Below are positions 15,965 through 54,684 of a DNA stretch of 64,000 nt, in pieces. The notes below the pieces were generated by a model. It was not told where the DNA came from. It searched no databases and was given only the letters and a program-made list of their open reading frames with translations. The stretch comes from Granulicella sp. dw_53 (lineage in GTDB: Bacteria; Acidobacteriota; Terriglobia; Terriglobales; Acidobacteriaceae), in NCBI RefSeq assembly GCF_018449545.1, contig NZ_JAAVUR010000004.1:62001-126000 (forward strand). The letters run 5' to 3'. How positions within the stretch are numbered: the first letter of the stretch is position 1; each line of letters begins with the position of its first letter. The translations under genes were made by a program, and so were the position numbers.

Positions 15965-17628
15965 TGGCTAACGATAAGTTGAAGATGATACCGCTGGGGG
16001 GCCTCGGCGAGTTCGGTATGAACTGCATGGCTCTCCGCTGGCAAGATGACATTATTGTCATCGATGCCGGTCTGATGTTTCCTGAAGAAGAGTTGCTGGG
16101 TGTTGACATTGTTGTCCCGGACATCAGCTACCTGACTGAAAACCGGAGTAAAGTCCGCGCAATCCTGTTGACCCACGGGCACGAAGACCACATCGGTGGC
16201 CTGCCCTGGATACTCTCTGAACTTAACGTTCCCGTCTACGGGACCGAGTTCACCCTCGCCTACGTCGAGGGCAAGCTCGAAGAGCACCGGCTGCTCGATG
16301 ACGCCGACCTGATCGAGATGCTGCCCGGCAAGCGCTTTACGCTGGGGCCGTTCTCCATCATGCCCATCCGGGTGACGCACTCGCTGGTGGACTGCGTCGC
16401 TTTGGCGATCCATACGCCTGTGGGCGTCATTCTCCACACGGGCGACTTTAAGATCGATCTTTCACCGCCGGACGGCAAGGCCTTCGATCTTCACGCCTTT
16501 GCGGAGCTGGGCAAGCAGGGCGTTCTGGCGCTGCTGCAGGACTCCACCAACGTCGACCGTCCCGGCTACACGCCGAGCGAGCGGGCGGTTCGTCCTCGGC
16601 TGGACGAGATCTTTACCCAGGCCAAGAAGAAGCTGTTCTTTAGCTGCTTCTCCTCCTCGATCCACCGCATTCGGGTGGCGATGGAGCTGGCTCACCAGCA
16701 TGGCCGCAAGGTCGCGGTGATCGGGCGCTCGCTGGATAACTCGACCGAGATCGCGCAGGACCTTGGCTATCTGGATCTTCCTGCGGGGTTGATCATCAAT
16801 CCGGGGCAGATCAAGGAGATGCCGGCGAACAAGGTTTGCGTCCTGATCAGCGGAACGCAGGGCGAGCCGATGAGCGCGTTGAGCCGCGCCGCGGTGAACA
16901 ACCACAAGTTCGCCCGCATCGACGCCGGCGACACCGTGCTGCTTAGCTCGCGCGTGATTCCGGGCAACGAGAAGTCCATCTACCGGATGATCGACCACCT
17001 GGAGCGCCGCGACGCCAAGGTGATCCACGACGATGGTACGCAGGGCCTGATCCACGTCAGCGGACATGGCAGCCAGGAAGAGCTGCGACTGATGATTAAT
17101 CTCGTCCGTCCCAAGTTCTTCATTCCGGTGCACGGCGACTACCGTCACCTGAAGCGTCACGCGGAGCTGGCCGCCGGCATGGGCATCGTCGAGAAGGCGA
17201 TCATGCTGGAGGACGGTGAGGTCCTGGAGTTCGACAAGACGACTGCCACCAAGACTGGCAAGGTCACGGTGGGACGCGTCTGTATCGACTCCGGCGGCAC
17301 GTCCACCGATGTGGTGGAAGATGTCGTCATCCGCGACCGCAAGCATCTGAGCGAGGATGGCATTGTGCTGCCGATCATCGCGATCAACCGTCGAACGGGC
17401 AAGCTGGAGAATACGCCTGAGATCGTGATCCGCGGCATGGCCATCGACGACGAGAAGATGATCGCCGAGGCACGACAGATCGTGCAGCGGACGCTCGACT
17501 CTTCGGGTCCTGAAGAGAAGGCCGACTATGGCGTGATCAAGGAAAAGATTCGCAACGACCTGAAGCGCTACATCCAGAAGAGCACCAGCCGCCGGCCTTT
17601 GATCATGCCGGTGATTCTGGAGCTTTGA
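15964..17628 (+). CDS. rnj: Ribonuclease J
   Basis: A metallo-beta-lactamase/beta-CASP nuclease with 5'-3' exonuclease and endonuclease activity in mRNA decay and rRNA maturation. The 554-residue chain opens with IPLGGLGEFGMNCMA. The zinc-binding signature THGHEDHIGG has H71, H73, D75 and H76. It continues with HTGDFKID, DSTNVDRPG, the beta-CASP region and VHGDYRHL. The length matches RNase J1/J2. ATG 15964 is preferred to the TTG at 15961. A hairpin at 17655-17681 follows the stop. Confidence 0.95.
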   Translation: MANDKLKMIPLGGLGEFGMNCMALRWQDDIIVIDAGLMFPEEELLGVDIVVPDISYLTENRSKVRAILLTHGHEDHIGGLPWILSELNVPVYGTEFTLAYVEGKLEEHRLLDDADLIEMLPGKRFTLGPFSIMPIRVTHSLVDCVALAIHTPVGVILHTGDFKIDLSPPDGKAFDLHAFAELGKQGVLALLQDSTNVDRPGYTPSERAVRPRLDEIFTQAKKKLFFSCFSSSIHRIRVAMELAHQHGRKVAVIGRSLDNSTEIAQDLGYLDLPAGLIINPGQIKEMPANKVCVLISGTQGEPMSALSRAAVNNHKFARIDAGDTVLLSSRVIPGNEKSIYRMIDHLERRDAKVIHDDGTQGLIHVSGHGSQEELRLMINLVRPKFFIPVHGDYRHLKRHAELAAGMGIVEKAIMLEDGEVLEFDKTTATKTGKVTVGRVCIDSGGTSTDVVEDVVIRDRKHLSEDGIVLPIIAINRRTGKLENTPEIVIRGMAIDDEKMIAEARQIVQRTLDSSGPEEKADYGVIKEKIRNDLKRYIQKSTSRRPLIMPVILEL

Positions 17629-17698: not shown

Positions 17699-18003
17699 CG
17701 CTCCGGTCCGGGGGGTGCCCCCCCCTTGCCTAGGCGTAAACGGAGCTATGGCAACGAGATACGCGGGGCGACCCGCGGCAAGTTCTTCCAAATAAAAGGC
17801 TTGCGGCCAAATATGTGCAATCACTTGGGTTAAGGTACTGAACTGTTTTAAAGAGCGAAACCCCGGTTGGCCGGGGTTTTGTTTTTCTGCTGCTGTTTCT
17901 ATTTTATCGAGTGGCGCATAACTAACATGCCACTTTGTTTTATTTATTATCTGGTTTGTTTTTATGGGCTTAGAGGATTTTACCGGCTTTTGAGGGCTTG
18001 ACA
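17699..18003. repeat. Orphan copy of a dispersed ~300-bp intergenic module (copy A)
   Basis: This non-coding stretch shares, in the same order and orientation, at least five blocks with the leader of the CRHIKTNG gene at 53226-53503: (1) GCTCCG...TCCGGGGGGTG plus a C-run and CTTGCCT (17699-17731); (2) GTGCAATCACTTGGGTT (17815-17831); (3) GCGAAA plus a GC hairpin (17855-17879); (4) TTCTATTTTAT through ACTAA to TGCCACTT (17897-17935); (5) GGGCTTGACA (17994-18003). It spans most of the 468-bp gap between rnj and the dehydratase gene (17629-18096). No open frame for the associated protein is present here, so it is an orphan leader or a stand-alone repeat. Confidence 0.75.
17858..17887 (+). terminator. 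Rho-independent terminator-like hairpin inside repeat copy A
   Basis: AAACCCCGG (17858-17866) pairs with CCGGGGTTT (17871-17879) around a TTGG tetraloop, followed by TGTTTTT on the plus strand. The A-rich left flank means it could also act leftward. Its counterpart in copy B (53378-53407) is a related GC hairpin, so the structure is conserved in position. Confidence 0.75.
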
Positions 18004-18096
18004 GCGTTTTTCGATCTTCCCAAGGCGGATGTGTTGCATTGCCTGGTAATTTTCTTGTTTCGCGGTGACTGCCTTGGAAAGAGATAATGGAGCGAT

Positions 18097-19134
18097 ATGA
18101 GCGAGTTCGTTACGTTGGACGAGATACGCGCGGCAGAGAAGCGCATTGCGGGAGTGGCGGTTCGAACCCCATTATACAGGGTGGAGCGGGCGCGGCTGCG
18201 GATGACGAAGTTTGCAGAGCCGGTCTTCGATCTCTACATCAAAGCGGAGAGTGAGCAGCCTATTGGCAGCTTCAAGCTGCGAGGCGCGTACAACATGGTG
18301 GCGCAGTTGGCTCCGGAGGTTTTGAAGCGCGGGGTGATCACCTACTCCAGCGGCAACCATGCGCAGGGCGTGGCATACGCAGCGCGAGCGCTGGGGACCA
18401 AGGCCGTGATCGTGATGCCGGATAACGCCCCGGAGGTGAAGAAGGTGGCCACGGAGGCGCTGGGCGCGGAGATTGTGCTGGTGGGGCCGGCTTCGTCGGA
18501 GCGCAGGATCAAGGCGGAGGAGCTGGCGGAGGAGTTCGGCTATGCGATGATTCCGCCGTACGATCATCCACACATCATCGCGGGGCAGGCGACGTGCGGG
18601 CTGGAGATCGTCGAGCAACTTCCGGATGTCGATGTGATTCTGTCGCCGGTGAGCGGCGGCGGGTTGTTGAGTGGGACTGCCACGGCGGTGAAGTTGGCGG
18701 CTGAGGCAGGACTGGCGAAGCCCGGCGTGAAGGTGTGGGGCGCGGAGCCCGCGCTGGCGGCGGATGCGAAGGAGAGCTTCGAGACGAAGAGGCTGGTGGA
18801 GTGGCCTGCGGCGATGACGACACGCACTATTGGCGACGGTCTGCGCACGCAGAGCCTGGGCGCGCTGAACTTCGAGCATGTGCTGCGCTACGTCGATGGG
18901 ATTTGCACGGTGAGCGAGGACGAGATCTTTGCAGCGATGCGGCTGATGCTGACGATCACGAAGCTGGTGCCGGAGCCGAGCGGCGCGGTTACGCTGGCGG
19001 CAGCGCTCTTCCACGCGGAGGAGATCGGTCTGGACAAGGTTCGCAAGGTCGCAGTTATTCTGAGCGGAGGCAATCTGGAGCCAGCGTTGAAGGACCGGCT
19101 GGAGCGGGAGCTGGCGGCTGCGCAGGCCAGTTGA
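18097..19134 (+). CDS. Threonine/serine dehydratase (PLP-dependent, no ACT domain)
   Basis: Deaminates threonine (and probably serine) to the 2-oxo acid; threonine gives 2-oxobutyrate for isoleucine synthesis or catabolism. The 345-residue fold-type II enzyme has the PLP Lys K60 in SFKLRGAYN, SSGNHAQG, the glycine-rich phosphate loop VSGGGLLSG, and SGGNLEP near the end. The C-terminal regulatory ACT-like domain of biosynthetic IlvA is missing, so it resembles TdcB or serine racemase and should lack isoleucine feedback. It starts 93 nt after repeat copy A. Confidence 0.9.
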   Translation: MSEFVTLDEIRAAEKRIAGVAVRTPLYRVERARLRMTKFAEPVFDLYIKAESEQPIGSFKLRGAYNMVAQLAPEVLKRGVITYSSGNHAQGVAYAARALGTKAVIVMPDNAPEVKKVATEALGAEIVLVGPASSERRIKAEELAEEFGYAMIPPYDHPHIIAGQATCGLEIVEQLPDVDVILSPVSGGGLLSGTATAVKLAAEAGLAKPGVKVWGAEPALAADAKESFETKRLVEWPAAMTTRTIGDGLRTQSLGALNFEHVLRYVDGICTVSEDEIFAAMRLMLTITKLVPEPSGAVTLAAALFHAEEIGLDKVRKVAVILSGGNLEPALKDRLERELAAAQAS

Positions 19135-52779: not shown

Positions 52780-53220
52780 TTAGTTGGTTGGGTTTTCTTC
52801 TTCTTCCTCTTCTAGGATTTCTTTGATTGCTGGGTCTGCCAGGTCCAGGCCTTCTGGGGAGGGGGTTGAGGTTTGGACTATGGTGGGGGCGTAGGGTTGG
52901 GTGTTGAGGCGGGCGGAGTTCATGCTGGCTAGCTGGAGGCCGTAGAGGATGGCTGTGCCTCGTTTGGTCTCGAGTTGGCCGGTGGCCAGGGCGTTGACGA
53001 CGACGGAGAGGGCTATCTGGACAGATTCGCGGTCTTCGAGGGCGGTGAGCTCTACGTGCTGGCCGGGGACGAGGTAGCTGCGAGTGGCCTGGGTGTGGCG
53101 GAAGCCGCTGTGGCGCTGGTGGAGGCTCTGGTGGAAGTAGCAGTAGATTCCCGTGCGGAGGGATGGAGCCTGGCAGCGGGTTCCGTTGGTCTTGATGTGA
53201 CGGCAGAGTGCGTATTGCAT
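52780..53220 (-). CDS. Small Cys/His-motif protein (CRHIKTNG family), unknown
   Basis: A 146-residue protein starting MQYALCRHIKTNGTRCQ, with GGAG eight bases before the ATG at 53220. The N terminus is a compact zinc-site candidate: C-x-H near residues 6-8, Cys16, then YCYFH with Cys and His at about 27 and 30. A short beta segment (YLVPGQHVELTALEDRESVQIALSVVVNALATG) and a helix follow, then a Pro-rich stretch, and the chain ends in a run of Glu (EILEEEEEENPTN). I recall multi-copy relatives in Acidobacteriaceae, from memory only. Its leader is the repeated module at 53226-53503. Function unknown; a nucleic-acid-binding role is conjecture. Confidence 0.7.
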   Translation of the reverse strand: MQYALCRHIKTNGTRCQAPSLRTGIYCYFHQSLHQRHSGFRHTQATRSYLVPGQHVELTALEDRESVQIALSVVVNALATGQLETKRGTAILYGLQLASMNSARLNTQPYAPTIVQTSTPSPEGLDLADPAIKEILEEEEEENPTN

Positions 53221-53225
53221 GTTAT

Positions 53226-53503
53226 GTGCTCCGTTTTCCGGGGGGTGTCCCCCCCCCTTGCCTGCGTGTAAGCGCAATGGTTGCTTGCAGCTAGCGGAGG
53301 CTTGCTCCGCTAAATCGGTGCAACCATTGGGGTTGCGTCCAAATTCGTGTCAGCTTTGGACTTAGCTGGTTAAATGCGAAAGCCCCGGCGTGTTTGCCGA
53401 GGCTTTCTTAATGTCTAGTTCTATTTTATGGAATGGACCGAAACTAAAGTGCCACTTGTAAGTTGATGTGGTTGAGTGGGTTAGGTGGTTTTGGGGCTTG
53501 ACA
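53226..53503. repeat. Dispersed intergenic module, copy B (leader of the CRHIKTNG gene)
   Basis: Shares ordered blocks with copy A (17699-18003): GCTCCG through TCCGGGGGGTG, a C-run and CTTGCCT (53229-53263); GTGCAACCATTGGGGTT (53318-53334); a GCGAAA-led GC hairpin (53378-53389 with 53396-53407); TTCTATTTTAT through AACTAA to TGCCACTT (53419-53457); GGGCTTGACA (53494-53503). The CGGAGC complementary to block 1's left edge is the ribosome site of the leftward gene, so the module is that gene's 5' region. On the minus strand block 4 reads TGGCAC with TT eleven bases on and then CATAAAAT, promoter-like. Confidence 0.75.
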
Positions 53504-53748
53504 TGCGATTTTGCTGGGGTTTTGCGGGATTTTTAATTTGGGCGTGGCTGGTGGATGGATGACAAACAAAAACGGTCCGAAGCGGGAGGACAAACAAAGA
53601 ATGACAGACAGATCAAATTGGTGTGATCGGTGAAGATCGGCGTTAAGTTTTTGTCTTGCTCCTATCAGCCTTTATCCCTTGGACCACCGTTACGCCTTTG
53701 ATGCCGGGGTGTGGGAGAATGTGTGTGTCTCCGGGTTTCGCTTCGACG

Positions 53749-54427: not shown

Positions 54428-54454
54428 CTAGCCTGGGGCCCTGCCCCAGGCTAG
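54428..54454 (+). terminator. Stem-loop after pgsA
   Basis: CTAGCCTGGGG (54428-54438) pairs perfectly with CCCCAGGCTAG (54444-54454), loop CCCTG. A smaller GGGCC-TTT-GGCCC hairpin follows at 54463-54475. There is no T-run, but position and stem strength support termination. Confidence 0.7.
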
Positions 54455-54684
54455 TATAGAGCGGGCCTTTGGCCCTTGGTTTATCGCATCCCCTTATCCT
54501 TGGCGTCCTCCAGATGCTGATATCGAGCGGACCTTCGACCCTACATCCATGCGCTCTTTGTCCCGTCAGGAAATTTGCTTTGGAGCCGAGCAGAGCGTCT
54601 CGCAAAAGTCGATTGAAAAATTGAGCCGGAGAGAGCACGGATTTACTGGTTTGTCTGCGGAAACTGCTGTATGCTCCATCAAAA

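Follow-up and report, generated by a model that had tools for sequence, protein, structure and literature searches.

The window, a 64,000-nucleotide stretch of DNA from Granulicella sp. dw_53, contains two copies of a noncoding module of ~300 bp, both reading along its + strand, which we call W. An earlier, sequence-only reading had placed copy A at 17699-18003 and copy B at 53226-53503 and had reported five short blocks shared in the same order and orientation. All five are present in both copies (17700-18003 and 53226-53503), but the right-hand limits fell short: the conserved core extends to about 18013 and 53520, respectively. In W order, the module starts with a G/C-rich end, of which CCCCTCCCCC and GGGGGTACCCCC are the types; a 114-bp block and a GC hairpin follow, and after them a core of ~110 bp, whose motifs run TCTAGTTCTATTTTA .. 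ACTAAAGTGCCACTT .. GGGTTAGG .. GGGGCTTGACATG .. TTTTGCTGG (Table 1).

Table 1. Parts of the two module copies and the adjoining CRHIKTNG gene in the window
Feature	Position	Strand	Basis or remark
Copy A left end, G/C block GGGGGGTGCCCCCCCC	17710..17725	+	Sequence; automatic block finder
Copy A 114-bp block, near-constant length, conserved short motifs	17726..17839	+	Alignment; leave-out profile E 6.2e-18 (17726-17834)
Copy A terminator-like hairpin AAGAGCGAAACCCCGG-TTGG-CCGGGGTTTTGTTTTT	17851..17886	+	RNA fold -23.9 kcal/mol, z -5.1
Copy A core, longer-spaced class: TTCTATTTTA, AACTAACATGCCACTT, GGGCTTGACA	17893..18013	+	R1 51.6 bits; leave-out profile E 3.2e-11 (17893-18009)
CRHIKTNG gene, 146 aa, zinc-finger-like N terminus	52780..53220	-	ATG at 53220; two family members in genome
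Copy B left end, G/C block adjoining gene start	53238..53257	+	Sequence; automatic block finder
Copy B 114-bp block	53258..53371	+	Leave-out profile E 2.1e-21 (53258-53367)
Copy B terminator-like hairpin GAAAGCCCCGGC/GCCGAGGCTTTC	53378..53407	+	z -5.0 on +, -7.3 on -
Copy B core	53414..53520	+	R1 101.4 bits; leave-out profile E 1.7e-30

Copy B lies directly 5' of the CRHIKTNG gene (hereafter CRH), and copy A has no such gene beside it, both as the sequence-only reading had it: copy A sits between the gene for RNase J, which ends at 17628, and that for a PLP-dependent enzyme, which starts at 18097. The neighboring genes named below are ones that we take to be ilvA, pgsA, rnJ, and gltX, names assigned by eye; the Pfam domains are PALP (ilvA), CDP-OH_P_transf (pgsA), RNase_J (rnJ), and tRNA-synt_1c (gltX). 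Just downstream of pgsA, at 54432-54476 of the window, is a match to the Acido-Lenti-1 RNA (RF01687; 39.1 bits).

The 114-bp block of copy B contains an imperfect inverted repeat (30-nt pair, 53270-53299/53305-53334), and copy B also has two short inverted pairs of 9-10 nt, ~190 nt apart. These repeats are internal and do not pair the two ends; neither copy has terminal inverted repeats. The resemblance of the copies is not due to chance, because profiles built without them (the core from 29 other copies, the left block from 25 others) recovered both parts of both; the two best matches to the core profile were copies B and A, and the next had an E of 7.8. Chance similarity is ruled out by these profiles and by the copy number in the genome (see below). 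Copy A belongs to a lower-scoring, longer-spaced class, and its nearest relative among the 96 other copies compared from the source genome (L128) is 81% identical. A C/G-rich block left of the core was detected automatically in 86 of 97 such copies; the finder is home-made, and some blocks in the 11 copies without a detected one are visible by eye.

Copy number and distribution

R1, a sequence-only model of the core trained on 31 copies from the source genome, found at least 145 copies at E ≤ 0.1 in that 6.15-Mb genome (150 of 832 candidates scored), and copy B as a DNA query gave 47 matches at E ≤ 10. The family is thus not limited to the two window copies, the outcome that the sequence-only reading had named as one against it. 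Set against at least 145 modules, there are only two CRH-type genes in the genome, each beside a module copy in the same geometry, and the earlier description of the module as orphaned from the gene stands.

With its high copy number, its intergenic spread, and the skew-linked facing described below, the module behaves as a dispersed genomic repeat rather than as the control region of one gene. It is a large family of ~300-bp repeats that lie between genes of soil acidobacteria and whose facing nearly always follows the local strand bias; CRH, the gene family to which it is linked, is small and unstudied. We found no description of this repeat family in the literature searched.

R1 matched the module in 34 of 61 genomes, namely, in 34 of the 37 of the genus and in none of the 24 of other families, with 0 to at least 63 matches per genome (63 being the number scored). 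Counts in other genomes are lower bounds, since R1 was trained on the 31 source-genome copies only, and absences among relatives partly reflect its sensitivity because it can miss diverged modules. A CRH profile found the gene in 33 of the same 61 genomes, all in the genus. Both module and gene occur in 32 of the 37 genus genomes and neither in two (G012 and G013); two genomes have a module match without a CRH match (G008 and G022), and one has a CRH match without a module match (G016). Across the bacterial family, the CRH profile matched 92 of 200 genomes and 38 of 79 genera; named relatives that encode a CRH protein include Edaphobacter sp. RYN_3 and Granulicella sp. GL140_4. Some genomes (G009, G011, G200, and others) have up to 11-13 CRH-type matches, some in frames of 300-766 aa.

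Placement and orientation

We examined the gene context of 97 of the 145 copies, a set made up of the best-scoring ones and a number of weaker ones rather than a random sample; our home-made gene finder called no neighbor for 3 of them, leaving 94 with genes on both sides. The gaps that hold these modules are convergent in 39 cases, tandem in 42, and divergent in 13, versus 9, 33, and 31, respectively, among 73 control gaps of ≥300 bp without a module on one contig (C33); convergent gaps are enriched and divergent gaps depleted (Fisher P, 3e-5 and 4e-5). Convergent or tandem gaps, the placement typical of REP repeats, thus account for 81 of 94 copies and 42 of 73 controls. Between the C-rich end and the stop codon of + strand left neighbors (n = 56) there is a median of 23 bp, left neighbors on the − strand (n = 30) are a median of 72 bp away, and the core lies a median of 220-246 bp from the right-hand genes. 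Neighbors are diverse, and 63 of 96 left ones point into the module. The module prefers gene 3' ends; REP repeats likewise sit next to gene 3' ends (PMC3733652).

The likeness to REP, BIME, and REPIN repeats with their RAYT genes goes further: they too are high-copy, extragenic, and hairpin bearing, are found at gene 3' ends and in convergent gaps, and vary in copy number by species, with few companion genes per genome beside the repeat. However, the module is ~300 bp long, versus 20-40 bp for REP units, shows no enrichment of GTAG/CGTC tags, and lies beside none of the three Y1 genes of its own genome; its companion CRH is zinc-finger-like, has no recognized catalytic domain, and has the module on its 5' side. 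Mobilization of a REPIN-like element by the cell's Y1 (RAYT) transposase is suggested by the REP-like placement beside gene 3' ends (PMC3733652), by the three Y1 transposase matches in the source genome, and by the lagging-strand insertion known for this enzyme class (PMC6006769). This RAYT-driven reading is weakened by two observations: none of the three Y1 loci has an R1 match within the fetched 1.5-kb flanks, and the hairpin zone has the tags in fewer copies than its shuffles do (GTAG, 4 versus 20; CGTC, 9 versus 22 of 97 copies). We consider it unlikely.

Module orientation is fixed to local GC skew. In the source genome, 88 of 97 copies have flanks with positive skew along W (mean, 0.148; standard error, 0.011); whatever the directions of the neighboring genes, each side is positive on average. 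Six relatives gave positive skew at all 60 best-scoring copies (G025 and G032, 15 each; G014 and G023, 8 each; G031 and G033, 7 each), these being the best 30 of 115 and the best 30 of 165 matches. CRH genes have positive skew around them in 26 of 30 cases on the left and in 26 of 30 on the right, with one record counted twice. With local GC skew as a proxy for the replication strand (88 of 97 and 60 of 60), the copies show the fixed orientation expected of an element that spreads through single-stranded DNA (ssDNA) at replication forks.

Gene direction as the cause of this orientation is ruled out: of 271 genes, 135 have positive skew on the coding strand, and of 73 gaps oriented by their left gene, 38 are positive. 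Neither is the orientation tied to one chromosome arm, because skew flips sign every 10-100 kb on contig C33, where its sign in 2-kb windows agrees with 11 of 11 modules (three within 0.03 of zero). Neighboring modules on a contig have like orientation in 65 of 120 cases, no more often than by chance (P = 0.34). The window itself has skew domains of tens of kilobases that are independent of gene strand, with genes at 42-46 kb reaching −0.29 and those at 51-62 kb reaching +0.38. In complete relatives, adjacent modules of opposite orientation are each skew positive on their own W strand, which suggests similar domains there.

Orientation locked to skew is not special to this family, since a second, palindromic repeat (CCCACCCTTCGC .. 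GCGAAGGATGGGGCACCC), found near several modules (right flanks, for example at L002, L008, L013, and L098), behaves alike: it follows local skew in 28 of 29 cases, mostly at loci fetched around modules, and in 4 of 4 on C33. The simplest account would be that such repeats enter in one fork orientation and that later inversions carry skew and repeats together.

KOPS and AIMS are oriented chromosome motifs, and the module shares with them an orientation tied to a replication-like strand bias, but it is far longer and rarer, its placement differs from lineage to lineage, and it follows local skew domains rather than a whole arm. The copies might be read as binding sites for the CRH protein, autoregulated via the copy at its own gene, that organize or mark the chromosome directionally in the manner of KOPS. 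The tie to local GC skew, the evenly spaced conserved motif blocks without an RNA fold, the constraint in situ (see below), and the joint occurrence of module and gene in 32 of 37 genus genomes, with neither in 2, are in keeping with this reading. Copies are, however, placed differently between lineages and group by genome, module and gene occur apart in G008, G022, and G016, the GCGAAGGATGGGGCACCC repeat shares the same orientation, and module orientation follows no single chromosome arm; directional chromosome sites seem doubtful to us.

Conservation, hairpin, and RNA structure

Sister species have kept the module more alike than the DNA outside it. Across 11 ortholog pairs, the core is 88.1% identical, the hairpin 89.0%, and the left block 85.1%, versus 74.6, 71.1, and 69.3% for windows placed one after another right of the module; the pairs were found via the core, which favors conserved cores, while the left block played no part in finding them. 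Gaps number 41 per 1046, 14 per 491, and 87 per 1673 aligned columns inside the module and 285 per 1072 outside it (30-130 bp). Farther out, where the flanks of these pairs are mostly genes, identity is 93% on the left and 85% on the right.

The conserved hairpin described in the sequence-only reading is real and terminator-like, with fold z scores of −5.1 in copy A and −5.0 in copy B on W and −3.4 and −7.3, respectively, on the other strand. With a simple finder, 47 of 93 copies have a hairpin that passes the 95% level of their shuffles, and 46 do not; the stems are of 91 distinct sequences. The 8 nt after the stem contain on average 3.5 T's when read on W and 2.4 on the opposite strand. A standard terminator scan of copy B gave one site, versus a shuffle mean of 1.1.

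Compensatory changes, proposed earlier as support for a structured module, proved scarce. Across the 11 ortholog pairs, the 75 nt left of the core hold 245 predicted pairs, of which 187 are unchanged, 16 have one-sided changes, and only 3 have double changes, versus 39 that are broken, 12 of these from one locus; we thus find no evidence of covariation. The 114-bp block yielded 0 pairs in a consensus RNA fold and only scattered column pairs in a covariation search, and it looks like an array of spaced, putative protein-binding motifs. No Rfam family reached its gathering score in the module, either in the window copies or at 12 loci searched, and a known Rfam RNA was rejected; one weak match, to BSnc120, scored 19 bits, versus 114 required. 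A multicopy family of small-RNA genes could explain the near-constant length, the hairpin with its T-rich tail, and the constraint in situ, but it is at odds with the 0 predicted pairs in the 114-bp block, the lack of an Rfam match at gathering score, and the failure to find a promoter at copy B, and we regard it as highly improbable.

A cis-acting leader is another way to read these parts, in which a promoter, a hairpin of the attenuator type, and a region for ribosome binding would together control CRH and some other genes. At CRH genes the layout is indeed kept. A core match (R1, E ≤ 0.01) is present at 23 of 34 CRH loci (21 of 32 without two duplicate records), and all 23 lie upstream of the gene and antiparallel to it; by eye, the region upstream of the gene has the same order of parts as the module, followed by a purine-rich ribosome-binding site, and contains TACAAT-like boxes, a hairpin, and AAGGAG-like sites. 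Against this explanation stand the left neighbors that run into the module (63 of 96), the 114-bp block without a consensus fold, and a σ70 scan that found no site around copy B, which gives no support to the promoter-like reading of GGGCTTGACA. A riboswitch would be expected 5' of a consistent gene set; the neighbors are diverse, and the left ones mostly point inwards. A leader or riboswitch common to all copies is thus ruled out by left-neighbor direction and the missing consensus fold, and the earlier suggestion of a structured leader, which also has no Rfam family behind it, fits gene-linked copies at most. We judge control of CRH and some other genes by such a leader to be improbable as the explanation of the family.

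The CRH family, possible mobility, and proposed mode of spread

Six aligned members of the CRH family share invariant C6, H8, C16, C27, and H30. The first 37 residues resemble both DUF5763 (PF19067) and the primase zinc finger PF09329, but with scores below threshold (20.6 bits versus a gathering cutoff of 26.3 and 18.5 bits versus a curated cutoff of 28.8, respectively); the literature searched yielded no account of DUF5763. The protein has no solved structural relative at E ≤ 1 and no PHROG family, although one relative has a weak match (E 0.32), and its predicted structure has a mean pLDDT of 47. The neighbors of the window's CRH gene are rarely kept: pgsA is adjacent here only, and the gene on the other side is also adjacent in three other genomes (L140, L146, and L149).

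CRH genes, with their upstream regions, recur as similar units within two genomes. In G011, three unrelated loci hold units of CRH gene plus upstream region that share 95-99% identity over 0.88-0.99 kb, and five further CRH genes are 89-95% identical over 750-909 bp, including 0.15-0.25 kb upstream; three CRH genes of G031 are 83-87% identical over ~1 kb. By eye, the likeness of the G011 triplet ends at the CRH stop codon in two units and inside the gene in the third.

Module copies also mostly group by genome. In a tree of the 97 source-genome copies and 60 copies from six relatives (157 tips, closest relatives absent), the nearest neighbor of every source-genome copy came from the same genome, and there was 1 change of own/other label, versus 48 when labels were shuffled. 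Adding 8 copies from five more genomes, including the closest relatives G007 and G021 (165 tips), gave same-genome nearest neighbors for 95 of 97 and 7 label changes, versus 52 shuffled, which argues that part of the spread predates the split from the closest relatives.

Two orthologous sites differ in the presence of the module. R1 found the core upstream of gltX at 1 of 30 genus loci, that of the source genome; by eye, the site in G007 holds a related, G-rich remnant, and that in G021 has promoter-proximal sequence that runs on without a module. The genes rnJ and ilvA stand side by side at 4 of 30 genus loci, and R1 found a module at 1 of the 4, again in the source genome. G007 has a diverged module (L185, 26.5 bits) directly upstream of ilvA and oriented as beside CRH genes; given this position and orientation, it may serve there as the 5' region of ilvA.

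Over a shorter time span the copies appear stable. In the sister pair G025/G032, 14 of 15 G025 copies are shared (11 by alignment and 3 by flank position), so no recent move is shown for the copies compared. Set beside the site differences among relatives, this sharing suggests that copies are gained over longer times and then stay; they seem to be added in this way. We saw no target-site duplication in a one-sided comparison at gltX, and no exact two-sided empty site between G025 and G032, where the copies traced were shared. The earlier term "mobile module" therefore has indirect support, from at least 145 copies, the grouping by genome, presence and absence at two orthologous sites, and the near-identical units of G011.

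MITEs are non-autonomous transposon derivatives, and the family resembles them in having a small, gene-less, dispersed element alongside a larger, gene-bearing form; it differs in that both window copies are without terminal inverted repeats and in that target duplication was not seen at gltX (one-sided comparison). The gene-less module is probably a derivative of the unit that carries the CRH gene.

Taken together, we lean toward a REP-like dispersed extragenic family with a companion gene other than RAYT, which would have spread via ssDNA and been kept as transcription punctuation, and we hold this to be somewhat probable. In this proposal, the CRH-gene unit and its gene-less derivatives would be copied within lineages, through the action in trans of the CRH protein or of some enzyme; copying via ssDNA at replication forks would give the fixed orientation. 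Copies would land near gene ends in that strand orientation and be kept where they are harmless, mainly because the hairpin might stop transcription between neighboring genes.

More tentative, though conceivable, is a specific part for the zinc-finger-like CRH protein as the trans partner: it might bind the 114-bp block and help ssDNA copying, always in one fork orientation, while the host keeps the oriented terminator-like elements. If this were so, CRH and the module would form a partnership like that of REPIN and RAYT but built from an unrelated protein, a new kind of interspersed element.

REP and REPIN populations with their RAYT enzymes are the best-known long-lived repeats of bacterial genomes. 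The repeat family described here, in Acidobacteriaceae, has a similar habit, but it is larger, lacks REP-tag enrichment, has no Y1 enzyme nearby in this genome, and often lies beside a different gene family, that of CRH. Its agreement with skew may preserve the direction in which copies were inserted and the inversions that came later, and it makes entry at replication forks testable. One further copy (L127) has a short exact tandem duplication (CACATAGGGTTACCGGACT) on W, within 100 bp left of the core.
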